Virus record (IMG/VR): IMGVR_UViG_3300044846_001289
Coordinates: 1-25,527 of that record
Length of the DNA stretch: 25,527 bases
Origin: a virus
Direction: 5' to 3' (one strand)
Position numbers and translations under genes: made by a program. The notes beneath the pieces were generated by a model. That model did no database searches and was not told the origin of the DNA. It worked only from the letters and a program-made list of their open reading frames with translations. Below, piece after piece: positions 4,377 to 19,281 of this stretch; the stretch's first letter is position 1, and the number at the start of each line of letters is the position of its first letter.

Positions 4377-4396
4377 ATTTTACTAATTTTACAAAT

Positions 4397-4936: not shown

Positions 4937-5520
4937 GATTAGAAATTGCATCTTTTAAAGCGGTTAAATACGCTTGTTTAAATTTTCATTACGCAAAAGC
5001 AGTTCCTACTTATTCAATAGGTTATTCAGTATTTGAAAATAATATATGGTGTGGAGTTGTTTTATTTGGTGGTGGTGCTTCGGTAAATATGCCTGCGAAG
5101 TTTAATTTAAGAAATGGGCAATATTTAGAATTAAATAGAATGGCATTAAACGGTAAACAATCTTCAACAAGTAAAGTTTTATCAATAGCAATTAAACTAA
5201 TTAAAAAAGAATGTCCTACGGTTAGAATGTTATTTAGTTATGCTGATAAAGGACAAGAACATAAAGGAATAATTTATCAAGCTACAAATTGGAATTATAT
5301 TGAAAATATAGAAAGTAGCGGAACTGAATATTTATTAAACGGAATATGGAAACACGATAGGGGAAGATATAATTGGGGAGTTGACTTTAAGAAATTACCA
5401 AAAAGAAAGAAAGCAGGAAAACACAAATATATTTATCCATTAGATAAAACTTTAATACCTTTGTGTAAATCATTAAGTAAACCATACCCAAAAAAAGAAA
5501 TACAAGCGCAAGAAGTGTAA
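4933..5520 (+). CDS. Mom-like DNA modification protein (GNAT fold)
   Basis: This 195-residue protein resembles the phage Mu Mom family, GNAT-fold enzymes that convert adenine in phage DNA to an acetamido form and so block host restriction. Visible family features are FHYAKAVP (18-25, with the conserved His-Tyr pair), a central strand ending GVVLFG, LELNRM (65-70), FSYAD (101-105) and GIIYQATNW (112-120). The C-terminal tail is basic. Codon use is more A/T-rich than in its neighbours by eye, hinting at separate acquisition. It is coupled by ATGA to the ParB-like gene. Its last codons overlap a tRNA-like sequence. Family assignment is good; the exact modification is inferred. Confidence 0.8.
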   Translation: MRLEIASFKAVKYACLNFHYAKAVPTYSIGYSVFENNIWCGVVLFGGGASVNMPAKFNLRNGQYLELNRMALNGKQSSTSKVLSIAIKLIKKECPTVRMLFSYADKGQEHKGIIYQATNWNYIENIESSGTEYLLNGIWKHDRGRYNWGVDFKKLPKRKKAGKHKYIYPLDKTLIPLCKSLSKPYPKKEIQAQEV

Positions 5521-5601: not shown

Positions 5602-5919
5602 ATGCCAAAACCTGAAAATATAATAGACAAACAATTCCAAAAAGGACAAAGCGGAAATCCTAACGGAAGACCAAAAGGTAGTTTAAACCGTTCAACGATA
5701 GCGAAGTATTGGTTGGAGGTAAATCAAAATTTAAAAAACCCGTTAACTGGCGAAAACGAAACAATGTCGCAGGAAGATTTAATGACTTTGGCACTAATTA
5801 AGAAAGCAAGAGAGGGCGATGTAAACGCTTACAAAGCATTGATGGATTCAGGTTATGGAGCGCCAACGCAACAGATAACCCAAACGATTATCGAACAACC
5901 TTTATTTCCCGATGAATGA
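5602..5919 (+). CDS. DUF5681 domain protein, packaging-associated
   Basis: This 105-residue protein carries the DUF5681 signature near its start: FQKGQSGNPNGRPKG followed by a helical region with ALIKKAREGDVNAYKALMD and an ending GYG. DUF5681 proteins commonly lie just before terminase genes in phages and may act as a small terminase or DNA-binding packaging factor; this is inferred from context. I use ATG 5602 as the start. A TTG at 5524 in the same frame lies within the tRNA-like sequence and would add 26 residues that do not fit the family. The stop overlaps the sigma-like gene start (ATGAATGA). Confidence 0.78.
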   Translation: MPKPENIIDKQFQKGQSGNPNGRPKGSLNRSTIAKYWLEVNQNLKNPLTGENETMSQEDLMTLALIKKAREGDVNAYKALMDSGYGAPTQQITQTIIEQPLFPDE

Positions 5920-6440
5920 ATTGGTTGAGCGAAGTTGCAAAGAATCACAAGAATTATGTAAAAGTAATTAACAGCTTTGGAGAGTATTTTTACGCTGAAG
6001 ATTTGGTGCAAGAAATGTACTTGCGACTTGACCGCAACAAGCAACCCGACCAAATAATTGTAAACGGCAAAGTGAATGAATACTATATTTACTTAACTCT
6101 TAAATCGGTATTTCTAAACTTTGTAAAAGCTAAAAAGCAAATTATCAAAACAAATGATTTACCTTTGAATATTGAATCCGTTGATAATACCGAATACCAC
6201 GAAGCACAATTAAGGTTTAACATACGTATTGAAGCCGAAATAGACAAGTGGCACTGGTACGATGCGATGTTGTTTAGGTTGTATTTAGAAAGCGGTAAAT
6301 CGATGCGAGATATATCAGACGGAACAACGATTAGTTTGCGTTCAGTATTCGACACGATAACAGAATGTAAAAGGAAGCTGAAAGCGAATTGTAAAGAAGA
6401 TTACGAAGATTTAGTTAATAACGATTTAGAATTGATATAA
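5916..6440 (+). CDS. Sigma-70-like small regulator
   Basis: This 174-residue protein has the layout of a small sigma factor. AEDLVQEMYLRL (27-38) matches the core-binding region 2 helix of ECF-type sigma factors. The C-terminal part (about 105-160) forms a helix-turn-helix-like region 4 with LYLESGKSMRDIS and SLRSVFDTI. It could redirect host RNA polymerase to phage late promoters. A repeated two-part motif occurs before several structural gene clusters, which gives it candidate targets. It overlaps the genes on both sides, between DUF5681 and the terminase. A DNA-binding terminase small subunit is an alternative, since both need an HTH. Confidence 0.6.
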   Translation: MNWLSEVAKNHKNYVKVINSFGEYFYAEDLVQEMYLRLDRNKQPDQIIVNGKVNEYYIYLTLKSVFLNFVKAKKQIIKTNDLPLNIESVDNTEYHEAQLRFNIRIEAEIDKWHWYDAMLFRLYLESGKSMRDISDGTTISLRSVFDTITECKRKLKANCKEDYEDLVNNDLELI

Positions 6441-6844
6441 TGGCAAAAAGAAAAGCAAAAGGATTAGGAGATACAATCGACCAAATCACAACAGCAACGG
6501 GAATTAAAGCACTTGTTAAATTTGTAGCAGGAGAAGACTGCGGTTGCGACCAACGAAAGGAAGCACTTAACAAACTATTTCCTTACAATAAACCCAATTG
6601 TTTAACCGAACAAGATTACAACTTTCTAAAGGAATTTTTCGATGTTACACGAGGTGCAGTTGTTCCAACGGTTCAATACAGATTAAACCAAATTTACACG
6701 AACGTATTTAACAAGCCAGCTGAATTTACAAGTTGCGGAAGTTGCTTGTTAGACCGCATTAACGAATTAAAGAAAATATACGATTCTTATGTTCAAGAGA
6801 ACGACCGCCGTCAACAAGATACGGCAACTGAAGAAACGAATTAA
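6440..6844 (+). CDS. Cys-containing conserved phage protein, unknown function
   Basis: A 134-residue protein without a named domain. It has a basic N-terminus, then CGC (Cys34, Cys36), Cys54, a central helical segment with LTEQDYNFLKEFF, and CGSC (Cys99, Cys102). The paired cysteines could bind a metal ion. The C-terminus is helical and polar. It starts in a TAATG overlap with the sigma-like gene, and its 3' end overlaps the terminase start by 56 bases. Its place just before the large terminase suggests a packaging role, perhaps as small subunit, but nothing in the sequence proves it. Confidence 0.65.
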   Translation: MAKRKAKGLGDTIDQITTATGIKALVKFVAGEDCGCDQRKEALNKLFPYNKPNCLTEQDYNFLKEFFDVTRGAVVPTVQYRLNQIYTNVFNKPAEFTSCGSCLLDRINELKKIYDSYVQENDRRQQDTATEETN

Positions 6845-7943
6845 AATAATTCAAGGCGGAACTTCGGCATCCAAAACGTTTTCTATTTTAGCAGTTCTAA
6901 TTGACTATGCTGTTAAAAACCCAAATAGCGAGATAAGTATTATCGCTGAATCAATACCGCATTTAAGACGTGGAGCATTAAAGGATTTTATTAAAATTCT
7001 GAAATGGACGAACCGATATAACGATGAATGTTTAAACAAATCGCTATTAACGTACACAATGAAATGCGGTTCAGTTTTCGATTTCTTTTCGGCAGACGAT
7101 TCAAGTAAATTAAGAGGAGCAAGGCGTGACATTTTATATATGAATGAGTGTAATAATATGACTTTTGACGCTTACAATGAACTTTCAATTCGTACAAAGA
7201 AATACGTTTATTTAGACTTCAATCCCGTTAATGAATTTTGGGTTCACTCGGAATTAAAAGACGACCCGAATGCAGATTTTATTATCCTTACTTACTTAGA
7301 TAACGAAGCGTTGGACGATTCAATTATTCAACAAATCGAGAATAATAAAACCAAAGCGTTAACGTCTAATTATTGGAGTAATTGGTGGAAGGTTTACGGC
7401 GAAGGTCAAATAGGAATGTTAGAGGGGGTTGTATTTAGCAACTGGAAAACAATTGATTCAATACCAATTGACGCAAGGTTATTAGGTATTGGATTAGATT
7501 TCGGTTACACTAACGACCCAACTTCAGCGGTGGCGGTTTACAAGTGGAATGACAAAAGAATACTCAAAGAATTGTTTTACCAAACTGGAATGTTGAACGG
7601 CGATATAGCGAACGTTTTGCCAAAAGATACTTTGATTTATGCGGATTCAGCAGAACCGAAAAGTATTGAAGAAATACGACGTAGGGGTTTACAGATTTAT
7701 CCAGCAACAAAAGGCAAAGATTCGATAAATTACGGAATTGACTTGATGCAACAACAAGAATACTTAGTTACTTCGGATAGTGTAAATCTAATTAAAGAAC
7801 TTCGCGGTTATTGTTGGGATGTTGATAAGACTGGTAAACAGCTGAATAAACCCCAAGGAGGCAAAGACCACGCAATTGATGCAATCCGTTACCACGAAAT
7901 GGAATCCATAAGCACAAACAAAGGCGTGTATAACATTTATTAA
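6789..7943 (+). CDS. terL: Terminase large subunit (PBSX/Terminase_3-like)
   Basis: This 384-residue protein is the DNA-packaging motor ATPase and nuclease that fills the prohead through the portal. Walker A is the GGTSASKT variant (23-30), and Walker B DILYMNE lies at 114-120 with catalytic Glu120. The RNase H-like nuclease has acidic residues Asp237 (GLDFGYT), Asp286 (YADSAEP) and Asp364 (DHAIDAIRY). The protein is slightly short for a TerL, but all motifs are present. I keep the ATG at 6789, despite a 56-base overlap with the preceding gene, because it places the Walker A at the usual distance from the N-terminus. Confidence 0.93.
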   Translation: MFKRTTAVNKIRQLKKRIKIIQGGTSASKTFSILAVLIDYAVKNPNSEISIIAESIPHLRRGALKDFIKILKWTNRYNDECLNKSLLTYTMKCGSVFDFFSADDSSKLRGARRDILYMNECNNMTFDAYNELSIRTKKYVYLDFNPVNEFWVHSELKDDPNADFIILTYLDNEALDDSIIQQIENNKTKALTSNYWSNWWKVYGEGQIGMLEGVVFSNWKTIDSIPIDARLLGIGLDFGYTNDPTSAVAVYKWNDKRILKELFYQTGMLNGDIANVLPKDTLIYADSAEPKSIEEIRRRGLQIYPATKGKDSINYGIDLMQQQEYLVTSDSVNLIKELRGYCWDVDKTGKQLNKPQGGKDHAIDAIRYHEMESISTNKGVYNIY

Positions 7944-7965
7944 TATTTGTAGTTTATTAAGTATG
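7929..7965 (+). promoter_or_regulatory. Shared late-promoter-like motif, copy 1
   Basis: The 20 bases TTTGTAGTTTATTAAGTATG (7946-7965) are identical to copy 2 at 14841-14860 and end in the start codon of the tail chaperone gene. An AACA core (7932-7935) lies upstream at the same distance (14 bases start to start) as in copies 3 and 4, although the rest of the upstream box TGCAACA is weak here. Promoter function is inferred from repetition and position. Confidence 0.45.
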
Positions 7966-8727
7966 AAAGTTGAAATAACACTACCAACATCTATTGCTGA
8001 AATACCTTTGCAAGCGTATCAAAAATTCGTTAACGCTTCTCAAAATAGCGAAGATGAATTATTTTTAATGGAGCAAATGGTACAATCTTTTTGCGGTATT
8101 GAGTTAAGATCAATCGCTAAAATGAAAATGAACGACCTAACTGAAATTATTATTTCACTTACTGAAACATTAAAAAGCGAGGGTAAATTTCACGAACGAT
8201 TTAAGATTAAAGATTTGGAGTTTGGGTTTATTCCTAACTTAGAAGATATTAGTTTTGGTGAATACGTGGATTTGGAAAACTACTTACAAGACGTTTCTAA
8301 TTTTCACAAAGCAATGGCGGTAATGTACCGACCAATAAAAGAAACGAAAGGGGATAGGTATTCAATTCACGAGTACAAAGGTAGTGACGAATACAGCGAT
8401 TTAATGAAGTTTGCACCGTTGGAAATAGTAAAGGGAGCAAATGTTTTTTTTTGGAGTTTAGAAAAAGAATTATTGACGGCTACCCTCAAATTTTTGGAGA
8501 AGGAAATGACGGCGGAAATGAAAGCACACTTAGCGAAAGAGCTCAATTTGCAAAGCAGTGGGGGTGGTATGGAAGCTTATATGTACTCTCTGGAAACGAC
8601 ATTACAAAGTTTGATGCAGTCACAAAATTGGGACTTAGAAAGTGTCTTACTTTTCTCACGTTTACAAAACAAAGCGATGAAATTCAAAAGCGCGAATTTG
8701 ACCGAATTACAAAACGACCATGAGTAA
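7963..8727 (+). CDS. Tail assembly chaperone, zero-frame product
   Basis: This 254-residue protein fits the tail assembly chaperones (lambda gpG role) that coat the tape measure before tail tube polymerisation. It is helical and acidic, with no catalytic motif. It lies between the terminase and tail genes, and codons 161-163 include a nine-T run that allows a -1 shift into a second long open frame. In many phages the zero frame ends soon after the slip site; here it stays open for another 91 codons with plausible helices (LLTATLKFLEKE), so both frames may be used. The 3' end overlaps the next gene by 8 bases. Confidence 0.75.
   Translation: MKVEITLPTSIAEIPLQAYQKFVNASQNSEDELFLMEQMVQSFCGIELRSIAKMKMNDLTEIIISLTETLKSEGKFHERFKIKDLEFGFIPNLEDISFGEYVDLENYLQDVSNFHKAMAVMYRPIKETKGDRYSIHEYKGSDEYSDLMKFAPLEIVKGANVFFWSLEKELLTATLKFLEKEMTAEMKAHLAKELNLQSSGGGMEAYMYSLETTLQSLMQSQNWDLESVLLFSRLQNKAMKFKSANLTELQNDHE
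8444..8452 (+). other. Slippery T9 site for -1 ribosomal frameshift
   Basis: Nine T bases follow GCAAATG. In the zero frame they read GTT TTT TTT TGG, so the seven bases 8445-8451 fit the X XXY YYZ pattern as T TTT TTT. A -1 slip by two Phe tRNAs leads directly into the open frame beginning TTG GAG at 8451. No strong hairpin is obvious just downstream. Confidence 0.65.
8451..8723 (+). CDS. Tail assembly chaperone, -1 frame extension (gpT-like)
   Basis: This second frame is read after the -1 slip at 8444-8452, giving a fusion of about 163 zero-frame residues plus 90 residues. The segment FAKQWGWYGSLYVLSGNDI, followed by T-K-L-G-L and LTFLTF, is typical of the C-terminal part of flavophage tail chaperones. 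The frame has no plausible start codon of its own; only TTG occurs, inside the slip site. It ends in TGA that shares ATGA with the next gene (8720), as real genes do throughout this genome. The region is therefore probably coding in two frames for 273 bases. Confidence 0.7.
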   Translation: MEFRKRIIDGYPQIFGEGNDGGNESTLSERAQFAKQWGWYGSLYVLSGNDITKFDAVTKLGLRKCLTFLTFTKQSDEIQKREFDRITKRP

Positions 8728-9322
8728 AGACCCACGAGCCGAAGCATTACAAAAGTTCGTTGACGGAGTTGTAAAACAAGCGAGAACGAATTTAACGAAA
8801 CGTCAAAAGAACTCTTCTAAAAAACTTTATAATTCAATTAAAGGCGATAGTAAGGTTTACCCAAATTCTATCCGTATAGGTTTCGCGATGGAAGATTACG
8901 GATTTTTCCAAGACCAAGGGGTAAAAGGTGCAAACCCGAGTAAGGTATCAAAGAACGCAAAGATTAGAGGGCAACAAGCACCCAACAGCCGTTTTAAATT
9001 TGGGTCAGGAAATTACGCAGGAACGTGGCAAAGTTTCGTATCAAATATTGAAGTTTGGGCAAAGAGAAAAGGAATAAGACTTCGAGACGATCAAGGCAAA
9101 TATAAAAAAGGTAATTATCGAACAATAGCGCAAATAATATCAGGAAATATTTACAATCGTGGTATTAAACCAACGATGTTTTTTAGCGATGCTTTAGAAA
9201 CGAAATTAAAGAAGTTACCAACTGAATTAATAAACCCTTATGTATTAACCGTCAGTAATATTATTGACATAGCAATTAAAGAAAATGTACGCAAGAACGC
9301 CGTTTACAGTTCAAGTAAGTGA
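8720..9322 (+). CDS. Tail/neck protein, HK97 gp10-like candidate
   Basis: A 200-residue basic protein of a type seen in Bacteroidota phages next to tail chaperones. Residues about 58-100 contain the recognisable stretch YGFFQDQGVKG and a glycine-rich KFGSGNY loop; the C-terminal half is helical. The alternation and position suggest a tail-completion or minor tail protein of the HK97 gp10 type, which caps the tail and joins it to the head. No enzyme motif is seen. It is translationally coupled to the chaperone frame by ATGA. The family call is tentative; a phage structural role is likely from context. Confidence 0.6.
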   Translation: MSKDPRAEALQKFVDGVVKQARTNLTKRQKNSSKKLYNSIKGDSKVYPNSIRIGFAMEDYGFFQDQGVKGANPSKVSKNAKIRGQQAPNSRFKFGSGNYAGTWQSFVSNIEVWAKRKGIRLRDDQGKYKKGNYRTIAQIISGNIYNRGIKPTMFFSDALETKLKKLPTELINPYVLTVSNIIDIAIKENVRKNAVYSSSK

Positions 9323-10427
9323 AGCAGGTCAAACTGGTGGGAAATTAGAAGTTTTTATTAGTAATACTTCAACGTTTCCTGCAACAGCTACCTACGTACT
9401 TGAAAAGAACAACCCCAGCGCAACGAATAACGTTATTAGATTCAACGTCACGCCGTTTGTTCGTGAATTTATTAGTAACACTTATCAAGATATTAGAACG
9501 CTAACAAACCCACCAACAGCAACTCCAAATTTACATAGTGCATACGTTCGAATTAAGCGATATAAAAACGTTTCAGGAACTTACACTTTGTTGGATACAA
9601 GAACATATCGCTCGTTTGATGGTTACCGAAGTTTCACGGATTCAGGAACGTTGGGTTTTTTGCCGTGGAGCAATGAAACTTTGACTTTTAACGCCGCTTT
9701 CCCTTTATACAATTATCCAACGGGAATGGTTTTTTATTATTTAGGTTCAAGTTCGGCAAGTACTCCGAGCGGATTGCTTTCCCCAGGTTATATGACCGTT
9801 TATTTATCCCCTAATTGTTACGTTAAATATATTTCTTTAGCAAACCCTGCTAACACGGTAACGTCAACTTTAGATGCTGTAAATCAAAGATATGTTGATG
9901 TTCCTATTGTTTATCAAAGTCCGAGTTTTCCAAATACAAATTATTTCGCAGGCGGTAACACGTTGGAATTTTATAGCAGTTCAAATGTATTATTGCAGTC
10001 GTTTACTTTCAAGCCGTTAAGAGAATGCCGATTTACTGCTATTCCGATTGATTTTGTAAATAAATTAGGAGGTTGGCAACGTGTATTTTTCTTTAAAGCG
10101 TCGCAAGATAAATTGACTTTCTCAAGCGAAGATTATAATTTCCTTACAGCCGTTCCAACGGTAAATAATTGGACGATTACGGACGGGCAAACAAGGCAAA
10201 TGAACCGAAACGCACGTAGAAAAATAACCGTAAATTCAGGAAGCGTTGATGAAAACTTTAAGTTGATTTTGGAACAATTGTTATTATCGGAGCGAGTTAT
10301 GGTTAACGGATTACCTGCAAAGATTGTAACGAACGATGCGGAACTTTACAAAATAGTAAACAAGAAGGACTTGAACTATACACTTGAATTTGAATACGCT
10401 TATGACGAAGTTTCGACTATTTATTGA
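9285..10427 (+). CDS. Tail/baseplate structural protein, distal-tail candidate
   Basis: A 380-residue protein rich in Ser, Thr, Asn and aromatic residues with predicted beta strands, as expected for a virion structural protein. The last 70 residues (NARRKITVNSGSVDEN, LSERVMVNGLPAKI, LNYTLEFEYAYD) follow a pattern I know from flavophage tail proteins, in which a beta-rich module packs near the tail tip. It could be the distal-tail or a baseplate hub subunit. It overlaps the preceding gene by 38 bases and the next by 26 bases, so all three are read from one message. There are no cysteine clusters or enzymatic residues apart from a lone Cys in PLRECRF. Confidence 0.6.
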   Translation: MYARTPFTVQVSEAGQTGGKLEVFISNTSTFPATATYVLEKNNPSATNNVIRFNVTPFVREFISNTYQDIRTLTNPPTATPNLHSAYVRIKRYKNVSGTYTLLDTRTYRSFDGYRSFTDSGTLGFLPWSNETLTFNAAFPLYNYPTGMVFYYLGSSSASTPSGLLSPGYMTVYLSPNCYVKYISLANPANTVTSTLDAVNQRYVDVPIVYQSPSFPNTNYFAGGNTLEFYSSSNVLLQSFTFKPLRECRFTAIPIDFVNKLGGWQRVFFFKASQDKLTFSSEDYNFLTAVPTVNNWTITDGQTRQMNRNARRKITVNSGSVDENFKLILEQLLLSERVMVNGLPAKIVTNDAELYKIVNKKDLNYTLEFEYAYDEVSTIY

Positions 10428-12615
10428 GGGGGTTGAAGTTGACTTATTCAAAGATGAAATTGTAACGGTTAATTCGTCAGTTGCAAACGTTCAGGATATC
10501 AGTAAAGTGTTTAGCGATTTTTCACAATCGTTTTTAGTTCCTGCAACGCCAAGAAACAACCGTATTTTTCAGCATTGGTACGAAAGCGATGTAAACCCAA
10601 CGGTGGATCACAATTTAAGACGTGACGCTTTTATAGAAATTGAAATGCAACCGTTCAGAACTGGTAAAATTCAATTGAATGAAGCGGTAATTAAAGACGG
10701 TCAGGTTGTAAGTTATAGCGTAAATTTCTTTGGTGCGTTGGTTTCGCTTAAAGATAGATTTGGGGAATTGACGTTGGGAGATTTGGATTACTCAAGTGTT
10801 GGTTTCACTTATACAGGTCAAGCCGTTCAGGATAGACTTGAAGATGGAACAACAAGTTACAACGTTCGATTTCCATTGATTAGTCCCAAAAGATTTTGGA
10901 ATAACAGCGGAACAAATGACGATAACATATTCCAAGCTACAAAAGGAATAAGTTATTTAGAGTTATTTCCTGCGGTTCGTGTTTCTAAAATATTCGATAT
11001 TATCGAAACACAATTCGGAATTACTTTTAATAGTACATTTTTCAGTTTATCACGATGGACAGATTTATATTTTAGACATCAATTAGCAGAAAGTTTATTA
11101 ATATTTAGTCCTAAAACACAACTTAATTTTTTAAGCGTTTCGCCAAGCGTTAGTTACGTTGATTTGGCAAATAATTCATTAACACGACCGCCGTTTTTAG
11201 CGTCAACGGTTGAGGTATTTTTAACGGTAGAGTTATTTCCAAGTTCTGTAACGGCAAAACATTTTTGCGAAGTTCACGCAAACGGTGTTTTATTTTCAAC
11301 AACTGAATTTGCACCTGCGGAAACAAATAAAACGGTTGCTACTTTACCGTCAGATAATTCAGTTGTTTATACCGTGTTTCTTTATTCAGATGAAACAACA
11401 TCTTTTGATGCGAATGTAGAAATAGCACAAGCAGGAGGAGGAGGAGTTGTTACAATTACTGGAGATACAATAAACGCAGTGGTAAATATTTCAAGCGCAT
11501 TAAATAGCACGATGAAAATTTACGATTTCTTTTCAGCTGTTTTAAAAGCTTTCAATTTAGTTTGTGTTGGAGAAAATGAAACGACTTTTACGATTGAACC
11601 TTTGCAAGATTGGTACGAATTAGGAAGCGAAAAAGACTTAACGAAATACGTAATTAATTCAAATGGAATTAAAAGATTACCACTTTACAAACAGATAGCT
11701 TTTAAATACAAGCAAAGTAAATCGTTTGCAAATAAGAATTTTTTAAATTTATTTACTCGTGAATACGGAGATTTAGATTCAAGTTTTATTTACGATGGTT
11801 CTGAATTTAAAGTTGAGCTACCTTTTGAAAATAACCAATTTGTAGAAATAGATAATACAAATGTTTTTTGTGCTTATTGCATAGAACCATTTGCACCAAC
11901 AGATACGCAAACTAAACCGTATATTCCAGAACCTACATTACTATATTTAAACGGAGAAGAAACAGCAACAACGGCTTTTAAGTTAAAAAAAGAAAGTACC
12001 GAAGTAAACGTAACAGATTACGCAGTTTTCAATTCAGTTAATACAAGCGGTTTTTCACTTTGCTTTGGTAACGAATTTAACATCGTAACGCAAGAAACAG
12101 AACCTAACAGCCTTTACAATACTTACTACGCTAATCACTTAGGTAATTTATACGACCTACAACAACGTTTATTTTCTTTTACAGCTTATTTACCAACTGG
12201 AGTTTTAAGTGCGCTTAAATTGAACGATAAGATAATAATTAAAGATAAGCGATATTTGATAAACGATATTAGTAGCACGCTTAACAACGGCGAAGTGAAA
12301 ATGAATTTAATACTTGATTTGGTAACGATTCCAATGAGTTGCGATTGTATTCGTGTTACCTACACTTTAGTTGGTGGAGAGCCTATAACGGTGGAGGTTG
12401 CTGTATTTGGAGAAATATATGGAAAAAATTCTTATGAATTTATTATACAAGGAATAGACGTTTCTCTTTTTTGGAATGTAACAAATTGGATGTTTATCAA
12501 TGCTGATTCCGAAGAAACACAAGCCACCCTATCCGCAGACACTGATTGCCCTTTCGGAGTTTACACAATAGAAGAAGGTAGCATATTTTCAGCATTCAGC
12601 GTAACTAATTGTTAA
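10402..12615 (+). CDS. Large tail-tip/baseplate protein
   Basis: A 737-residue protein starting at ATG 10402; an in-frame TTG at 10384 would add only six residues inside the upstream gene. The N-terminus (KFRLFIEGVEVDLF, ISKVFSDFSQSF) matches a conserved flavophage tail family in which the first 150 residues form a tail-hub-like domain. The rest is beta-rich with an insertion at about 240-370 that looks like an adhesin-type beta sandwich. The C-terminal 90 residues have CDCIRVTYTLVGGEP and resemble a small Ig-like domain. It is probably part of the tail tip that contacts the host. Host-binding function is inferred. Confidence 0.65.
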   Translation: MTKFRLFIEGVEVDLFKDEIVTVNSSVANVQDISKVFSDFSQSFLVPATPRNNRIFQHWYESDVNPTVDHNLRRDAFIEIEMQPFRTGKIQLNEAVIKDGQVVSYSVNFFGALVSLKDRFGELTLGDLDYSSVGFTYTGQAVQDRLEDGTTSYNVRFPLISPKRFWNNSGTNDDNIFQATKGISYLELFPAVRVSKIFDIIETQFGITFNSTFFSLSRWTDLYFRHQLAESLLIFSPKTQLNFLSVSPSVSYVDLANNSLTRPPFLASTVEVFLTVELFPSSVTAKHFCEVHANGVLFSTTEFAPAETNKTVATLPSDNSVVYTVFLYSDETTSFDANVEIAQAGGGGVVTITGDTINAVVNISSALNSTMKIYDFFSAVLKAFNLVCVGENETTFTIEPLQDWYELGSEKDLTKYVINSNGIKRLPLYKQIAFKYKQSKSFANKNFLNLFTREYGDLDSSFIYDGSEFKVELPFENNQFVEIDNTNVFCAYCIEPFAPTDTQTKPYIPEPTLLYLNGEETATTAFKLKKESTEVNVTDYAVFNSVNTSGFSLCFGNEFNIVTQETEPNSLYNTYYANHLGNLYDLQQRLFSFTAYLPTGVLSALKLNDKIIIKDKRYLINDISSTLNNGEVKMNLILDLVTIPMSCDCIRVTYTLVGGEPITVEVAVFGEIYGKNSYEFIIQGIDVSLFWNVTNWMFINADSEETQATLSADTDCPFGVYTIEEGSIFSAFSVTNC

Positions 12616-12620
12616 AAAAA

Positions 12621-12782
12621 ATGAGAATACAAAATATTATAAACCTACTGAAAACACAAAAATTTTACGGTGTTTCTAAAGAAGTAGATATTGCAAAGGG
12701 TGTTAATGAAATTACGCCGAATATAAAACGAATTATAGACCAAGAAAATAGAAAGTATCATGGCAGAAAAAAAGGTTATTGA
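12621..12782 (+). CDS. Small protein of 53 residues, unknown
   Basis: A short open frame begins with ATG after an A-rich run (GTTAAAAAAAATG), 5 bases after the previous stop, and ends at TGA 12780-12782 inside the tape measure gene. The product is basic and helical (QNIINLLKTQKF, EITPNIKRIIDQEN). It fills what would otherwise be a 144-base gap between the tail-tip and tape measure genes, and the 23-base overlap matches the crowding elsewhere. No family is recognised. It may be a tail accessory factor. Confidence 0.6.
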   Translation: MRIQNIINLLKTQKFYGVSKEVDIAKGVNEITPNIKRIIDQENRKYHGRKKGY

Positions 12783-14847
12783 GATAGAAATTCAGGATAA
12801 TTCTAAAACGCTTAAACAACAATACAAAGAGGCGGTTTTAGAAGTTCAGAAACTTGCGGATGCTTTCGGTGCGACATCAATCGAAGTTCAAAATGCGTCA
12901 AAAAGAGCGGCTGAATTAAAAGACCAAATCGAAGATGTTAACGACGCTATCCAATCGCAAAAGGGAGAGGGTGCATTTATTGCTTTGGGTAAATCAGTTA
13001 GTGCTGTTGCAAATGGTTTTAGTGCCGTTCAGGGTGCAATGGGTTTAGTTGGTGTTGAAAGTGAAGAGGTGCAACAAGCGATGTTAAGAGTTCAAAGTGC
13101 AATGGCTTTGGCACAAGGATTGGAGGGTTTAGAAGATGCAGGAAGAGCGTTTAAGCAGTTGGGAGCGGTTGTTAAATCAACTACTATTTTTACGACTGCT
13201 TATAACTTTGTAATGGGAATTTCCAACAAAGAGACGGCAACAAATGTAGCAGTTACTGAAGCGGATTCAGTTGCAAAAGTAGGTTTAGGAGCAACAACGG
13301 TTGGTGTTACAACGGCAACAACTGGCGCAACAACAGCGATGAAGTTGTTTAGATTAGCTTTGATTGCAACTGGTATCGGTGCAATAATTGTTTTAATTGG
13401 TTTACTAATTGCAAACTTTGATAAGGTAACAAAAGTAGTTACTAAACTTTCAGGATATGTTGTAAAAGCTTATGACTATTTCGACCAATTAGGAACTGGA
13501 ATAAAAGTTTTAATAGGTATCTTTTTTCCTATGATTGGAATTATTTACGGAGCAATTAAAGCACTTGAATATTTTGATATTATCGACACGAAGAACGAGC
13601 GTAATATGTCAGCACGTCACGAAGCTAATATGCGTCGAGTTGATAAATCGTTAGCGAAAAGAGAAAAGGAACGTATCGCAAGAAAAAAAGCATACGACGA
13701 AGAAACTGGAAATATTGACCGACAAATTAAGTTATTAGAAGCGCAAGGAAAATCAACGGAAGCACTTGAAAAGTTACAGCTTAAAAGGTCGTTAACAAAT
13801 CAACGTGAACTGATTAAAGAAGCACGTTTGAACTTGCAAATTTTAAGAGCAACGAATATCGGTGGTGTCAACGATGAAATGATTGAGGAAACAAAAACCG
13901 CAATCGCTGAAATGAAACAAGCAATTTTAAATACTGAAACGGATATTAAAATAGCAAGGATTGAAGGTGCAAAAGAAACTAAGGATGCAACTAAAGATAG
14001 TGAAAAGGAAAAACAAGGGGTTATTATAGACACTTACGCATTACAGCAAAGTATTTTAGCTGATATGAATGCAAAGGAATTAAAAGCACTAGACGACATC
14101 GACAAAGCAAACGCAGAATCTAATAAGCTAAAAAAACAACAAGAAGTTGATTACCTTAATGAAATTGAAGCATTACAAGAACAAAATTTCCAATTTGGCT
14201 TAACAGAACAGCAAAGGGAAATACAATCTGTTAACGACAAGTATTTTACACTTGAAGAACTTGCAAAAGGTAACGCCGAAGAATTAGCAATTATTGAAAA
14301 AGCTAAAACAGATGAATTAAGTGTTATTAATGATAAATATACTAAAGAACAAATCGCAACGGCTCAAAGTGTTCAAAGGTCAAAATTACAAATGACAGCG
14401 GATGCGTTTGTTGCAATTGGTGGTTTAATAGAATCTTTCAACATTAAAGATGAGGCAAGAGCACGTAAACAATTTCAAATCGCAAAGGCGTTTAATTTAG
14501 CGGCTGCAATTACAAATACTTACTTAGGTATTACCGACGCTTTGGCAAAAGATGGAACTTTCCCAGGTTCTCGATTTATAGCGGCAGGAACGGTGGCAAC
14601 AACTGGTTTGGCAAGTATCGTAAAAATTGCAAGTACACAATTTGGAAGCGGTGGCGGTGGAGGAAGCAACCCAGTTCCGACTGGTGGCGGTGGTGTTATA
14701 GCACCTAATTTAAACGTCGTTGGAGACACTGGAATAAACCAACTTGCAACCTTACAACAGCAACCTGTTAAAGCGTATGTAGTAAGCAACGACATCACAA
14801 GCGCACAGCAGTTCGATTTGAAAGTGCAACAAACAGCGAGTTTGTAG
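12760..14847 (+). CDS. Tail tape measure protein
   Basis: This 695-residue protein sets tail length and probably helps DNA entry. The N-terminal 100 residues are helical, starting with a coiled coil (EAVLEVQKLADAFGATSIEV). Two hydrophobic segments follow (about 197-221 and 247-270), then a long charged coiled coil (about 285-530) rich in Lys, Glu and Ala. The C-terminus has a Gly-rich stretch (GSGGGGGSNPVPTGGGG). At about 0.15 nm per residue, a known rule for tape measures, the tail would be near 100 nm. It lies downstream of the tail chaperones but is separated from them by four tail genes, which differs from the usual chaperone-then-tape order. Confidence 0.85.
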   Translation: MAEKKVIEIEIQDNSKTLKQQYKEAVLEVQKLADAFGATSIEVQNASKRAAELKDQIEDVNDAIQSQKGEGAFIALGKSVSAVANGFSAVQGAMGLVGVESEEVQQAMLRVQSAMALAQGLEGLEDAGRAFKQLGAVVKSTTIFTTAYNFVMGISNKETATNVAVTEADSVAKVGLGATTVGVTTATTGATTAMKLFRLALIATGIGAIIVLIGLLIANFDKVTKVVTKLSGYVVKAYDYFDQLGTGIKVLIGIFFPMIGIIYGAIKALEYFDIIDTKNERNMSARHEANMRRVDKSLAKREKERIARKKAYDEETGNIDRQIKLLEAQGKSTEALEKLQLKRSLTNQRELIKEARLNLQILRATNIGGVNDEMIEETKTAIAEMKQAILNTETDIKIARIEGAKETKDATKDSEKEKQGVIIDTYALQQSILADMNAKELKALDDIDKANAESNKLKKQQEVDYLNEIEALQEQNFQFGLTEQQREIQSVNDKYFTLEELAKGNAEELAIIEKAKTDELSVINDKYTKEQIATAQSVQRSKLQMTADAFVAIGGLIESFNIKDEARARKQFQIAKAFNLAAAITNTYLGITDALAKDGTFPGSRFIAAGTVATTGLASIVKIASTQFGSGGGGGSNPVPTGGGGVIAPNLNVVGDTGINQLATLQQQPVKAYVVSNDITSAQQFDLKVQQTASL

Positions 14848-14860
14848 TTTATTAAGTATG
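14825..14860 (+). promoter_or_regulatory. Shared late-promoter-like motif, copy 2
   Basis: TGCAACAAA (14825-14833), 7 bases, then TTTGTAGTTTATTAAGTATG (14841-14860), the same 20 bases as copy 1. It overlaps the end of the tape measure gene, whose TAG stop lies inside it, and ends with the start codon of the XkdF-like gene. It would allow the head block to be transcribed separately from the tail block. Confidence 0.5.
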
Positions 14861-15715
14861 GAAGTTTACGAATTAGTAATTAAAGACGAAACTAAGGACG
14901 GCGTTTTCGCTGTTTCTTTGGTAGAAAAACCTGCTATTGAAGAAAACTTTATAGCACTTTCAGAACACGAAATCGAACTAAAAGCAATTGACGAAAAGAG
15001 AATTGTTTTAGGCGCGGCGTTAATTCCAAACAAGCGAATATTTAGAAAAGATAAGGACAAAGAGTTTGAAATATTCTTTTCTAAAGAAACGGTAAAGCGT
15101 GCAAGTGAGTTGGTATTTATGCGAGGTCAACATCAAAACACAACGGAAAACCACGCTGTTAAAGTTGACGGAATGACGATCGTGGAATCATGGATTATTG
15201 AGGATAGCAAAAAAGATAAAAGCGCATTTTACGAAATGAGTTTGCCAGTTGGTACGTGGATGATAGCGATGAAAGTTGACAACGATGAAACGTGGGAAAA
15301 GGTAAAGAAAGGCGAATTTAAAGGGTTTTCAATCGAGGGTTATTTTGCTGAACGTTACGAAATGACAGCACGTGAGAAAGTAGCTGAATTGTTACGTAAA
15401 GAATTTAATTTAGAAAGTTATACCGACTACCCAGAACAAGCAACTGAAAACGCAAAAATAGCTTTGCGATATGTTGAGGAAAACGGTTGGGGTTCGTGTG
15501 GCACTCCCGTTGGAAAAGTACGTGCAAATCAATTAGCGAATCGAGAACCAATTAGCGAAGATACAATTTCACGAATGGCAAGTTTTGAACGTCACCGAGA
15601 AAATTCACAAAAGGAATTAGGGGACGGATGCGGTCGTTTAATGTGGCTTTGTTGGGGTGGCGATGCAGGTATTGAATGGGCACAAAGAAAATTAGAACAA
15701 ATCAAAAATAAATAA
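14858..15715 (+). CDS. XkdF-like head protein with an extra C-terminal domain
   Basis: A 285-residue protein. Residues about 1-190 match the XkdF family (phage PBSX), typified by VEKPAIEENF, RGQHQNTTENHAV, WIIEDSKKDKS, PVGTWMIAMKV and KGFSIEGYF. These proteins sit in head gene clusters and are proposed to act in capsid maturation or as a prohead protease. Residues about 200-285 form a second module (DYPEQATENAKIALRYVEEN, CGTPVGKVRANQLANREPIS, GDGCGRLMWLCWGGDAGIEW) that also occurs in other phage head proteins. Conserved His, Cys and acidic residues lie there, but I cannot assign a catalytic set. It is followed by the AT-rich gene at 15718. Confidence 0.8.
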   Translation: MEVYELVIKDETKDGVFAVSLVEKPAIEENFIALSEHEIELKAIDEKRIVLGAALIPNKRIFRKDKDKEFEIFFSKETVKRASELVFMRGQHQNTTENHAVKVDGMTIVESWIIEDSKKDKSAFYEMSLPVGTWMIAMKVDNDETWEKVKKGEFKGFSIEGYFAERYEMTAREKVAELLRKEFNLESYTDYPEQATENAKIALRYVEENGWGSCGTPVGKVRANQLANREPISEDTISRMASFERHRENSQKELGDGCGRLMWLCWGGDAGIEWAQRKLEQIKNK

Positions 15716-15717
15716 AT

Positions 15718-16146
15718 ATGAAAAGTTTACAGATTATCAACAAAATTGAAAGTAAGAAAGTTGAGTTAGGAATGAATGTTGAGTTAGGAATGAATGTTGA
15801 GTTAAGCGCTTTAGATAATTTAGAAAAAAAATTTAAGGAGGTAAATAAAGAATTAAGTAATGAATTAAATAGTCAAATTAGTAAAATAAATTCAATATTA
15901 AGTGATAACAATAATATTACAACTATTATTAATAAATATCAACCTTTATTTGCAGAAGATGAAAAAATATCTAAAATGATTATGGATTTAGGTTTAGGAG
16001 ACAAAGTAGCTCATAATTTATTTGCTGTAGCAGGGAACGCATTAAGCAGGTCAAAAAATTATAAAAAATTTATAGACAGAGCAACCGAAAAATTAAAATC
16101 ATTAAATGGAGACTATAAAATGATAGGGCTACCTGACGCAATTTAA
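15718..16146 (+). CDS. AT-rich coiled-coil protein, possible inserted gene
   Basis: A 142-residue protein of unknown function between the XkdF-like gene and the small Cys protein. Its DNA is much more A/T-rich by eye than the flanking head genes, and it uses AAT/TTA/AAA codons heavily. The N-terminus has a tandem repeat (V-E-L-G-M-N twice) from an 18-bp DNA repeat. Residues about 30-70 look like a coiled coil (NLEKKFKEVNKELSNELN), and the C-terminal half is helical and basic. The base composition and position inside a structural block suggest an added accessory gene (moron), not a scaffold, but a scaffold role cannot be excluded. Confidence 0.6.
   Translation: MKSLQIINKIESKKVELGMNVELGMNVELSALDNLEKKFKEVNKELSNELNSQISKINSILSDNNNITTIINKYQPLFAEDEKISKMIMDLGLGDKVAHNLFAVAGNALSRSKNYKKFIDRATEKLKSLNGDYKMIGLPDAI
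15760..15804 (+). repeat. 18-bp tandem repeat, 2.5 copies
   Basis: GTTGAGTTAGGAATGAAT occurs twice head to tail (15760-15777, 15778-15795) and is followed by half a copy (15796-15804). It lies in frame near the start of the AT-rich gene. The copies are identical, so the repeat is probably recent and could vary in number between relatives. Confidence 0.9.
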
Positions 16147-16159
16147 AAACAAATAATAT

Positions 16160-16333
16160 ATGAAAACTACATCACCAAAAGGCGGTAAACGTGGTTGTTT
16201 ATGCAAAGATAACAAGTACCGAAAAGAATGTTGCGAGGGGGAACTTTCACAGCAAGGTATCGGATCAACTGTTAACGGTGGCTCACAAACAATTATACGA
16301 CCAGCGACAAATACATTAGTAATAATTCGCTAA
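16160..16333 (+). CDS. Small Cys-motif protein of 57 residues
   Basis: A short gene encodes MKTTSPKGGKRGCLCKDNKY, a CC pair after RKE, then QQGIGST and a beta-like C-terminus (SQTIIRPATNTLVIIR). The G-C-L-C-x(8)-C-C pattern is one I recognise in small proteins of flavobacterial phages and could hold a zinc ion. It fills the gap between the AT-rich gene and the scaffold candidate and stands in the head block. Function is unknown; it may be a capsid accessory. Confidence 0.65.
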   Translation: MKTTSPKGGKRGCLCKDNKYRKECCEGELSQQGIGSTVNGGSQTIIRPATNTLVIIR

Positions 16334-16335
16334 AG

Positions 16336-16369
16336 TGCAACAGATTAAAAACAATATAGTTTTATAAAA
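16336..16369 (+). promoter_or_regulatory. Shared late-promoter-like motif, copy 3 (diverged)
   Basis: TGCAACAGA (16336-16344) is followed, at the same spacing as copy 4, by AATATAGTTTTATAAA (16353-16368), which differs from copy 4 only before the TAG. It lies in the 47-base gap before the scaffold candidate at 16381, and an A10 run separates it from the start codon. Confidence 0.4.
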
Positions 16370-16380
16370 AAAAAACAATT

Positions 16381-16920
16381 ATGAATTATAAGGAAATAGT
16401 AAAGAAAATTTGTGTCGCTTTAAACATCGAAGTGAAATTAGAGCAAATGAAATTAAACGACGGTGTAACGGTAATCGAAGCGGATAGCTTTGAGCCAAAC
16501 AACGAAGTGTTTATAATTACCGAAGACGAGCAACGCATACCGATGCCAATTGGAGAATATGTAGTTGAAAACGGAATGCTTTTAATTATAACTCAAGAGG
16601 GTGTAATCGCTGAAATTAAAGAACAAGAAGCACCTGCAGAAGAGGAAGCACCCGAAGTCGAAGCACCTGAAGAGGAAATGAAAAAAGACGACAAAATGAT
16701 TGAAAAATCGCAAGTTAAAAAAACGGTTGAATCAATGGTTAAAGAAACGTTCTTTTCAGAAATGGAATCTTTGAAAGAGGAAAATGAAAGATTGAAAACG
16801 GAGTTGGCACAAATGCAAGAACCGAAGCCAATCGTTCACAACCCAGAATCAAAACAAATGGAGCAAGCAACAGCACCAAAATCAACAATGGATTTAGTAT
16901 TAAAATTTATAAACAAATAA
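16381..16920 (+). CDS. Putative capsid scaffold protein
   Basis: A 179-residue protein. The first 75 residues form a small beta-rich domain (EVFIITEDEQRIPMPIGEYV). A very acidic Glu/Pro/Ala linker follows (about 80-100), then a charged coiled coil (about 105-145, ESLKEENERLKTEL), and a C-terminal helix with FINK. Acidic and coiled-coil proteins just before the capsid gene usually scaffold the prohead, and the basic-helical end would bind coat protein. This rests on composition and position, not on a named domain. It is preceded by the diverged copy of the shared motif. Confidence 0.6.
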   Translation: MNYKEIVKKICVALNIEVKLEQMKLNDGVTVIEADSFEPNNEVFIITEDEQRIPMPIGEYVVENGMLLIITQEGVIAEIKEQEAPAEEEAPEVEAPEEEMKKDDKMIEKSQVKKTVESMVKETFFSEMESLKEENERLKTELAQMQEPKPIVHNPESKQMEQATAPKSTMDLVLKFINK

Positions 16921-16924
16921 CAAA

Positions 16925-17347
16925 ATGAGTACAACGTATTTAGCAGTAACCAACGATGTCGAGCGTCAGTTGGTACAAGTAGAAGCCGTAACAGGCGCAA
17001 CAACATTGACCGCAGAAGATAGTGGCAAAGTGTTTATTTTAAAAGCATCAGGAGGAGCGCAAATCACACTTCCAGCGGTGGCAACATCGGCAGGATTTAG
17101 ATTTAAATTCGTAGTTGGACAACTTTTCGCAACAACTAACTGGACGGTTTTAGCAGCATCAAATGTGATTGAAGGTTCGGTTTTAGTTGCAGGAGCGCAC
17201 GTTGCAGGAGTTAACGAAAATACAATTTCGTTCGTAGCTTCAGCAGAATCAGTTGGTGACTTTGCAGAATTAGTTTGTGACGGGACACACTGGTACGTTA
17301 ACGGTTCAGGTGTTACAGCAGGATCAATCACTTTAACAGCAGCATAA
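16925..17347 (+). CDS. Head decoration or head-fibre-like protein (candidate)
   Basis: A 140-residue protein made of repeated short beta strands rich in Ala, Val, Thr and Gly, with one Cys (Cys123). The segment DSGKVFILKASGGAQITLP is a pattern common in virion surface proteins with beta-sandwich or beta-helix folds. It begins 4 bases after the scaffold candidate and precedes the major capsid by 21 bases. Position and composition suggest it coats the capsid. No enzyme motif is present. A tail-fibre-like or cement protein is possible. Confidence 0.6.
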   Translation: MSTTYLAVTNDVERQLVQVEAVTGATTLTAEDSGKVFILKASGGAQITLPAVATSAGFRFKFVVGQLFATTNWTVLAASNVIEGSVLVAGAHVAGVNENTISFVASAESVGDFAELVCDGTHWYVNGSGVTAGSITLTAA

Positions 17348-17368
17348 TAATTAAAAAACTATAAAAAA

Positions 17369-18328
17369 ATGAGTACAAGTACATCAATAACAACTACTTA
17401 CGCAGGCGAGTTCGCAGGTAAGTATATCGCAGCGGCTTTGTTACCCGCACCAACTTTGGCTAATAACTTAATCACGATTATGCCGAATGTTAAGTTTAAA
17501 TCGGTTATGAAAAGACTTGCAACTGATAAGTTGTTAAGTAACGCATCTTGCGATTTCAATCCAACGGGGACGGTAACGTTAACGGAAAGAATTTTACAGC
17601 CGAAAGAACTACAATTAAATAGACAGCTTTGTCGTTCAACTTTCAGAAATGATTGGGACGCAATCGAGATGGGTTATTCAGCATTTGACGTAATGCCGAA
17701 ATCGTTTACTGATTTTCTTTTGGCACAATACGCTGAAAAAGTAGCTTCAGAAAACGAGGTTAACATCTGGAGAGGTGTTGCATCTAACAACGGAGAGTTT
17801 GACGGATTTACAACTTTGTTAGCTTTAGATGCGGCTTTACCAACAGCGCAAGAACTTGCTTTAGTAGGTGGCGGTTTGTTATCAACTAACGTAATTGCAG
17901 AAATTGGAAAAGTTTTGGACGCAACTCCTTTGGCAGTTTCAGCACGTGAAGATTTCCATATTTACGTTTCAACAAACGTATTCAGATTATACGTTCGTGC
18001 ATTGGGTGGTTTTGCAACTAACTTAGGAGCAAACGGTATCGACGGTAAGGGGTCAATGTGGTTTAATGGTGGAGCAATTTTACCTTTCGAAGGTGTTAAA
18101 TTAGCACACGCACCAGGTTTACCTGCTTCAACAATGATTGCAACGACTAAAGAAAATTTAGTTTTCGGAACTGGTTTATTAGCGGATTCCCAAGAAGTTA
18201 GAATTATTGACCAAGCGGAAATCGACGGTTCACAAAATGTACGTATCGTAATGCGATTAACTGCAGGTGTTCAATACGGAATCGTTGAGGATATCGTGAC
18301 TTACAATGTTACTAACTCAGCAAACTAA
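17369..18328 (+). CDS. Major capsid protein, HK97-fold candidate
   Basis: This 319-residue protein should form the icosahedral shell. The call rests on its position after scaffold and decoration candidates, the right length, and the composition: long mixed beta/helix with an N-terminal TSITTTYAGEFAGKYIAAAL, which in flavophage capsids forms the N-arm, a central loop with CRSTFRNDWDAIEMGYSAF, a long spine helix (SFTDFLLAQYAEKVASENEV) and a C-terminal beta-rich tail (IDGSQNVRIVMRLTAGVQYG). No cleavage site can be proved, and no stand-alone classical prohead protease is seen. Confidence 0.82.
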   Translation: MSTSTSITTTYAGEFAGKYIAAALLPAPTLANNLITIMPNVKFKSVMKRLATDKLLSNASCDFNPTGTVTLTERILQPKELQLNRQLCRSTFRNDWDAIEMGYSAFDVMPKSFTDFLLAQYAEKVASENEVNIWRGVASNNGEFDGFTTLLALDAALPTAQELALVGGGLLSTNVIAEIGKVLDATPLAVSAREDFHIYVSTNVFRLYVRALGGFATNLGANGIDGKGSMWFNGGAILPFEGVKLAHAPGLPASTMIATTKENLVFGTGLLADSQEVRIIDQAEIDGSQNVRIVMRLTAGVQYGIVEDIVTYNVTNSAN

Positions 18329-18334
18329 AAAACT

Positions 18335-18892
18335 ATGTGCGACTTAGGAAACGGCAGATTAGAAGTTTGTAAAGACTCAATCGGTGGATTAGACGCTGTA
18401 TATTTAATTAACTTCGGGGATTTCAACCCCGAGGTTGATGTAAGTTATTCAGTAACGGCAGGTGAGGAAGATATTATCACGGCTATTGCGAACGTAACAG
18501 CTTGTTACAAATTCACTTTAAAAGGAACTAATAGTTTTACAGAAACTATCACAACTGACAGAAACAACGGTACAACTTTCTTTTCACAAGAGTTAAGTAT
18601 TACTTTGAAAAAGCAGGATGCAAAAACTACGAAAATGGTTAAATTGCTTTCTTACGGAAGACCGCATATTATTGTAAGAGGTAGAGATAACCTTTACAGA
18701 ATTGCAGGTTTAAGACGTGGAATGGATTTAACAGCAGGAAGTATTGCAAGCGGTGCGGAAGCAGGAGATATGAACGGTTATACATTGACGTTTACAGGCA
18801 TCGAAAATTTGCCAGCAAACACAATCAATTGTTCTACTGAAGCAGGTTTATTATCTGATTTAACTTCTTTGGCTTCGTTCACAACTACATAA
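18335..18892 (+). CDS. Major tail tube protein
   Basis: A 185-residue beta-rich protein expected to polymerise into the tail tube. LITEFGD-like strands (YLINFGDFNPEVDVSYSV), a charged loop LKKQDAKTTKM and the C-terminal GAEAGDMNGYTLTFTGIENL are typical of tail tube subunits. It is unusual for the tube gene to follow the capsid and to lie about 10 kb from the chaperone gene. A strong terminator 22 bases after its stop codon closes this transcript, as expected for very abundant messages such as capsid and tube. Confidence 0.78.
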   Translation: MCDLGNGRLEVCKDSIGGLDAVYLINFGDFNPEVDVSYSVTAGEEDIITAIANVTACYKFTLKGTNSFTETITTDRNNGTTFFSQELSITLKKQDAKTTKMVKLLSYGRPHIIVRGRDNLYRIAGLRRGMDLTAGSIASGAEAGDMNGYTLTFTGIENLPANTINCSTEAGLLSDLTSLASFTTT

Positions 18893-18913
18893 TTTCGTTT
18901 ATTTTAATTGTTT

Positions 18914-18940
18914 AAAAGGGAGCTTCGGTTCCCTTTTTTT
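18914..18940 (+). terminator. Strong intrinsic terminator with UUCG loop
   Basis: The stem AAGGGAGC / GTTCCCTT (one G-T pair) closes on a C(UUCG)G tetraloop, one of the most stable loops, and is followed by a run of seven T. It lies 22 bases after the tail tube stop codon and ends the capsid and tube transcript. Confidence 0.93.
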
Positions 18941-18941
18941 A

Positions 18942-18978
18942 TGCAACAAAATTTAGCTTTTGTAGTTTTATAAATATG
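18942..18978 (+). promoter_or_regulatory. Shared late-promoter-like motif, copy 4
   Basis: TGCAACAAA (18942-18950), 8 bases, then TTTGTAGTTTTATAAATATG (18959-18978), 17 of 20 bases as in copies 1 and 2, ending in the start codon at 18976. It is the only sequence between the strong terminator and the next gene, so whatever restarts transcription must lie here. This gives the best positional support for a promoter role. Confidence 0.6.
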
Positions 18979-19281
18979 AATGTTTTACAAGTAAGTGCAA
19001 CAGCCCAACAATTGAAATGCGCACCACGTTCGTCAACGATTACGCATATTATTGTAATTGATGAAGAAGCAGGAACGAGCGCAACTATTAACGCACCAAC
19101 TATTAACGATTTTGGTTATTATGTAGGAATACAAGCCGTTTATTCTTTAAAGGCAGGTAGGTTTTATATTGTTCAATTATACAACCTAACAACTTTTTTA
19201 GGTAGTGAACGTGTATGGTGTTATAAGGCAGGGTTGCAAACAGATGAACACTCAAGTAATAATGATTTTGTAATGCTATGA
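18976..19281 (+). CDS. Small phage protein of 101 residues, unknown
   Basis: A 101-residue beta-rich protein: NVLQVSATAQQLKCAPRSST, then VIDEEAGTSATINAPTIN and a C-terminal part with VWCYKAGLQTDEHSSNN. Two cysteines are present. No named family is recognised. It is the first gene after the terminator, and its stop overlaps the portal start (ATGA), so it is probably the head of the portal operon and a virion accessory such as a small decoration or tail protein. The role is inferred from location. Confidence 0.6.
   Translation: MNVLQVSATAQQLKCAPRSSTITHIIVIDEEAGTSATINAPTINDFGYYVGIQAVYSLKAGRFYIVQLYNLTTFLGSERVWCYKAGLQTDEHSSNNDFVML

Follow-up and report, generated by a model that had tools for sequence, protein, structure and literature searches.

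A two-box motif before the structural genes of a Bacteroidota phage group is a probable set of late promoters, with a phage-encoded ECF-like sigma factor as their candidate reader

The window, a 25.5-kb IMG/VR virus record (IMGVR_UViG_3300044846_001289; positions are those of the whole stretch), carries four copies of a two-box motif directly upstream of structural gene units. We conclude that these repeats are very probably the late promoters of a phage group, read by a phage sigma factor of the extracytoplasmic function (ECF) type together with the host RNA polymerase, and with transcripts that would begin on the A of the ATG start codon or directly beside it. The promoter nature of the repeats and their spacing are strongly supported by sequence comparison. 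From these data we further infer that this particular sigma factor recognizes the boxes, that they fire late in infection, in line with their placement before structural genes, and that the messages start at the predicted base and are translated without a leader. The features on which the argument turns are the following.

7932..7962, plus strand: putative late promoter copy 1; AACA 7932-7935, N16, GTTT 7952-7955, N7, ATG 7963 as predicted transcript start
7963..8727, plus strand: first gene behind copy 1; 254 amino acids, phrog_32199, no assigned function
14825..14857, plus strand: putative late promoter copy 2; TGCAACA 14825-14831, N15, GTTT 14847-14850, N7, ATG 14858
14858..15715, plus strand: first gene behind copy 2; XkdF-like prohead protease (PF14550)
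16336..16380, plus strand: putative late promoter copy 3; TGCAACA 16336-16342, N16, GTTT 16359-16362, start predicted near 16370
16381..16920, plus strand: first gene behind copy 3; scaffold-like, matching the C-terminal part of phrog_24921
18914..18940, plus strand: intrinsic terminator closing the unit before it, hairpin AAAAGGGAGC-UUCG-GUUCCCUUUU followed by a T run, immediately upstream of copy 4
18942..18975, plus strand: putative late promoter copy 4; TGCAACA 18942-18948, N16, GTTT 18965-18968, N7, ATG 18976
18976..19281, plus strand: first gene behind copy 4; 101 amino acids, immediately before the portal gene
5916..6440, plus strand: candidate ECF-like sigma factor, 174 amino acids; region 2 at about 11-78, flexible linker at about 81-88, region 4 at about 92-157; proposed promoter reader

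An initial annotation of this DNA had described the repeat as a 20-mer, TTTGTAGTTTATTAAGTATG, identical at 7946-7965 and 14841-14860 and matching in 17 of 20 bases at 18959-18978. These matches hold and are not random (three against 0.03 expected, a number reached in 0 of 100 shuffles), and the upstream box that it reported was found as described, with TGCAACA at 14825, 16336 and 18942 and AACA alone at 7932. The gap of 7-8 bases given between that box and the 20-mer was a miscount, the distance from TGCAACA to TTTG being 9-10 bases, and the 20-mer itself did not survive as the conserved unit, since what relatives keep is just the pair of boxes and a spacing of 7 bases between GTTT and ATG, the 7 bases themselves being variable. 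As redefined through these relatives, the layout reads (TGC)AACA, 15-16 bases, (TA)GTTT, exactly 7 unconserved bases and ATG. The two boxes are separated by 16 bases in copies 1, 3 and 4 and by 15 in copy 2. Across the whole window, the pattern AACA-N15/17-GTTW-N7-ATG (W, A or T) picks out copies 1, 2 and 4 only (three matches against 0.29 expected), and the weak relative formerly proposed before the ParB gene (4383-4399) lacks an AACA/GTTW pair at the correct spacing. In copy 2, a tape-measure-like open reading frame (ORF) has the -35 box in its final codons and uses the TAG of the -10 box as its stop codon. The claim that the messages would be nearly leaderless applies to copies 1, 2 and 4, which share GTTT-N7-ATG; it fails for copy 3, where the ATG at 16381 lies 18 bases past GTTT, behind a predicted A-rich leader of about 11 nt. 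The terminator before copy 4 is a good one: its hairpin has -13.4 kcal/mol (z -3.5) and leads into a T run.

A motif scan of relatives, which the initial annotation had proposed as a check, revealed the motif at the same four places in loci of the window's own clade (loci with a major capsid protein close to that of the window) wherever these loci reach them. Copy 4 stands in non-coding DNA between the terminator and the next gene. Across its 16 distinct sequences TGCAACA and TAGTTT are kept, GCAACA and TAGTTT without any variation, and the spacer is largely unconstrained. Between GTTT and ATG there are 7 bases in every one of the 45 instances, although six different 7-mers fill this gap. The 7-base gap is likewise constant in 10 of 10 instances of copy 1, and copy 2 has a single length across 16 distinct sequences as read from the alignment, which implies a constant 7-base gap. 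At copy 3, relatives keep the boxes and have 15-18 A-rich bases before the ATG.

We then asked of more distant phages where the boxes stand relative to start codons, using diverged contigs dereplicated to about 50; L056 and L058, which belong to the window's own clade, were removed for the offset, grid and gene-context tests. A weight matrix was trained on the window and on the cultured Nonlabens phage P12024L, with the distance to ATG not part of it. An ATG opening an ORF of at least 60 amino acids occurred at offset 7 after GTTW in 30 cases, compared with a mean of 3.8 at other offsets. The total of matrix matches in the diverged contigs (a first pass that included L056 and L058) was not enriched over controls; only their position relative to start codons was. 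A grid that varied both spacings around the relaxed boxes [A/T]ACA and GTT[A/T], run over 50 diverged contigs, had one dominant cell, [A/T]ACA-N16-GTT[A/T]-N7-ATG, with 26 matches; the runners-up N15/N7 and N16/N9 had 9 each and all remaining cells 5 or fewer. On the reverse strand the whole grid gave 2 matches and none at N16/N7, N15/N7 or N16/N9. Of the 35 sites with N15/16 and N7, 14 stand before orthologues of the gene at 7963, 11 before those of xkdF, 3 before those of the gene at 18976, 1 before that of the scaffold gene and six before other ORFs. Exact pattern counts in sigma-neighbour contigs alone gave a weak signal because the boxes drift, and the signal is clear with the trained matrix and the two-spacing grid. 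The late-promoter reading is thus supported by boxes that are kept around a variable spacer, before the same late genes in diverged phages and at fixed spacings.

A subgroup (L155, L165, L169, L177, L181 and L187) has GTTA-N9-ATG, not N7, upstream of the orthologue of the gene at 7963, with a predicted 2-nt leader; it would offer a natural comparison for leaderless initiation. In the interval between xkdF and the scaffold gene, three diverged phages (L060:8523, L062:2349 and L081:8971) carry ORFs of 131-146 amino acids, each with its own late-promoter copy, which resemble a moron gene with its own late promoter. The window ORF in the same interval (15718-16146) has no such box; within it, an in-frame short tandem repeat, GTTGAGTTAGGAATGAAT, spans 15755-15800.

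Many IMG/VR contigs encode relatives of the window's structural proteins; the cultured phages that do so are P12024L and P12024S (NC_018272 and NC_018271; Inhavirus), whose major capsid and portal proteins are both 34% identical to those of the window. In P12024L, AACA-N15/17-GTTW-N7-ATG has 7 matches against 0.34 expected, all on the late-gene strand. Six of them fall exactly at annotated gene starts (179, 3031, 5412, 24771, 26011 and 27612), of which 179 and 3031 have the gene context of copies 2 and 4 (the xkdF homologue and the gene before portal); the match at 23446, inside the terminase gene, is probably due to chance. One further site, the eighth, deviates slightly in spacing and lies before 22090, which is homologous to window ORF 6440. 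P12024L and P12024S resemble the window in their related capsid and portal proteins, in a homologous sigma factor (gp35) and in the promoter layout at six annotated gene heads; they differ in the -10 box (CGTTA, TAGTTT in the window), in the -35 box (mostly AAAACAAA, TGCAACA in the window) and in a permuted gene order. In a panel of ten cultured Bacteroidota phages, motif set and sigma factor were present together in these two (7 matches each) and both missing from the other eight, namely Fpv5, 11b, 6H, P12002L, P2559S, phi19:1, FCL-2 and BKO1-1, which had no sigma homologue and 0-1 motif matches, the level of the reversed-pattern control. Fpv5 is a fair control because its terminase is 50% identical to that of the window.

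Near 2980, 5365 and 25945 of P12024L (L103), the small minus-strand ORFs gp04, gp07 and gp44 begin just upstream of late promoters. At gp04 and gp07, a host-type TATATTTG box on the opposite strand overlaps or adjoins the AACAAA -35 box, which suggests opposed host-sigma and phage-sigma promoters at these two genes.

The proposed reader, the product of ORF 5916-6440, is absent from the initial annotation. Its gene lies in the replication-side cluster just before the terminase genes, and the order of the sigma gene, ORF 6440 and terL is kept in loci that reach all three. The protein combines an ECF-sigma region 2 signature, AEDLVQEMYLRL, with a C-terminal helix-turn-helix, and its predicted model (pLDDT 87) has helical domains at 11-78 and 92-167 joined by a low-confidence linker at 81-88. 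With 174 residues, regions 2 and 4 and a linker, it has the architecture of ECF sigma factors (about 160-200 amino acids). At the family level, 32 of 51 members match Sigma70_r2 and 8 of 51 match Sigma70_r4_2 (E 0.1), and the best PDB matches of the family profile are ECF sigma factors (best E 0.0022). The top PDB matches of the model in Foldseek are also ECF sigma factors, with probability 1.00; its region 4 superposes on that of sigma-E bound to -35 DNA with a root-mean-square deviation of 1.7 Å, and its top viral fold neighbours in BFVD are phage sigma factors, including that of GAP52, which belongs to the 7-11 group of phages. The family profile and the predicted fold agree in indicating ECF-like sigma factors, convincingly so for the family as a whole. 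A direct tblastn search of cultured phages with the window protein found no homologue, so that a profile was needed to detect the one in P12024L/S; gp35 of P12024L matches the family profile at 5e-11, scores above the Pfam cut-off for Sigma70_r2 and has the same neighbourhood as the window gene, between VRR-NUC and terminase. The family has more than 570 relatives in IMG/VR, and none were found in the bacterial genome collection searched.

Behind the sigma gene in nearly every relative checked stands the ORF that in the window occupies 6440-6844 (phrog_32048, no assigned function); its homologues in P12024L, L158 and L166 have a late-promoter-like site of their own. The cluster before the sigma gene includes a Mom-like DNA modification protein at 4933-5520 (PF25680, E 4.7e-34; phrog_1384), and the position of parB and mom relative to the sigma gene is shuffled among relatives. 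A scan of the window for sigma70-type -35/-10 sites returned a count below that of shuffled sequences.

In our working model, the ECF-like sigma factor would join the host RNA polymerase and direct it to a -35 box (TGC)AACA and a -10 box (TA)GTTT, 15-16 bases apart, thereby switching on the head and tail gene units. Placing the boxes in the frame of phage 7-11 and of ECF promoters puts the start within 1-2 bases of the A of ATG in copies 1, 2 and 4. Because GTTT is kept 7 bases from ATG in three of the four copies, these units would yield leaderless mRNAs, while transcription from copy 3 would begin near 16370 and give the scaffold unit its leader of about 11 nt. Seven bases would be about the minimum, as a start further in deletes the AUG, and this may explain why the distance does not shrink.

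Several points weigh against this model. In copies 1 and 2 the -35 box shares bases with codons of the gene upstream; part of its conservation there may be at the protein level, and these two copies carry less evidential weight than copies 3 and 4. Probabilities based on site counts are overstated because orthologous sites share ancestry. P12024S is nearly the same phage as P12024L, and the co-occurrence of motif and sigma factor therefore counts few independent cases. The window sigma scores under the Pfam cut-off (Sigma70_r2, 13.5 against 24 bits); its Foldseek E-values to PDB are just about 1e-3, and its whole-chain TM-scores are low, probably because the two domains are flexibly joined. 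Sequence and predicted structure are the evidence for promoters and starts, and recognition of the boxes by an ECF sigma factor of the host is conceivable in principle.

That the promoters are as described but have a different reader, either an ECF sigma factor of the host or the host polymerase with a phage activator, is the alternative that survives best, and we consider it improbable. In Flavobacterium psychrophilum there are seven ECF sigma factors, and one class of promoters carries a CGT -10 box (PMC9723704), similar to the CGTTA of P12024L. Against this, the phage itself encodes an ECF-like sigma factor whose family was not found in the bacterial genomes searched, and the motif set accompanies this factor and is missing where it is missing. 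Somewhat less probable still are ordinary host promoters, in which the Bacteroidota primary sigma factor (-33 TTTG, -7 TAnnTTTG) would read TAGTTTTA as a weak -7 box. This sequence has TA and TT in common with TAnnTTTG, the F. psychrophilum consensus (PMC9723704), and the -35 box lies near the -33 position. The sites do not carry TTTG at -33 and TAnnTTTG at -7, however: TTTG-N17/21-TAnnTTTG occurs once in the window (2.2 expected), elsewhere than at the motif sites, the conserved positions are AACA and GTTW rather than TTTG, the P12024L box CGTTA is incompatible with TAnnTTTG, and eight other Bacteroidota phages are without the pattern. It is very unlikely that the motif is a translation-start signal, a Kozak-like A-rich context, even though it ends at ATG and Bacteroidota lack Shine-Dalgarno sites and adjust initiation through bases close to the start codon (PMC6847099): one of the boxes, some 30 bases upstream, is held at fixed spacing across a variable spacer, the last 7 positions before ATG vary, the ATG of copy 3 is 18 bases beyond GTTT, and copy 4 sits directly behind a terminator. 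A recently duplicated segment or a coding coincidence, to which the exact 20-mer common to copies 1 and 2 might point, can be dismissed almost entirely, because the identity does not extend past the motif, only the boxes are retained in relatives, and the same layout in distant phages refutes duplication through the spacing test.

Late promoters read by the phage's own sigma factor are thus the reading we retain. Late promoters served by a phage sigma factor are known already, from phiEco32 and 7-11; what is new is the phage group, the boxes and the constant distance from promoter to ATG, from which a leaderless late regulon is predicted. In the open-access literature that was searched, we found neither the motif described nor, for this Bacteroidota phage group, a regulon under a phage sigma factor. 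We raise as a tentative and rather doubtful possibility that a large, mostly uncultured group of Bacteroidota phages has a late regulon under an ECF-like sigma factor built for leaderless messages and tied to leader-free translation, a mode that serves just about 5% of flavobacterial mRNAs; late phage messages would then be distinguished from host messages not only at the promoter but also at the ribosome. The analysis yields a defined promoter, a candidate phage sigma factor, starts predicted within 1-2 bases and a cultured model, P12024L, and late-gene switching in these little-studied phages thereby becomes directly testable. If true, it would add a phage sigma regulon to a phylum with unusual promoters and no Shine-Dalgarno sites, allow operon prediction in hundreds of uncultured phages and link phage transcription to leaderless translation.

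Among known systems, ECF sigma factors generally recognize AAC at -35 and CGT at -10 (PMC4153023), sigma-P recognizes AACA and TA boxes (PMC8791391), and promoter class SM6 of F. psychrophilum, with its CGT -10 box, has been ascribed to ECF sigma factors (PMC9723704). The phage sites are alike in their AACA -35 box, which is invariant in the window's clade and also present in P12024L, in a -10 box of the CGT or TA type (CGTTA in P12024L, TAGTTT in the window's clade) and in a spacing of about 16 bases, where the grid peaks. They differ from bacterial ECF promoters in being phage-borne, in the fixed 7-base distance to ATG and in that no anti-sigma partner was identified. The sigma factor gp47 of Salmonella phage 7-11 has region 4 and reads late promoters of the form GTAAtg-(16)-aCTA, with transcription starting at a distance of 6-9 bp from the element (PMC8948821). 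Common to both systems would be a region-4 sigma factor working with the host core enzyme and bipartite late promoters with 16-base spacing at late gene heads, whereas here the boxes are AACA and GTTW, the phages are those of Bacteroidota, and the ATG lies at the predicted start. In phiEco32, gp36 is likewise a phage sigma factor that drives late genes, from middle/late promoters, but it lacks region 4 homology and reads the single element tAATGTAtA (PMC8948821), in contrast to the two boxes and region 4 found here. Finally, leaderless bacterial genes carry a TA-like signal some 12 bp ahead of their start codon (PMC3160421), to which TAGTTT corresponds as TANNNT with its first T 13 bp before ATG; in the phages, this arrangement would belong to a single regulon and is combined with a conserved -35 box.

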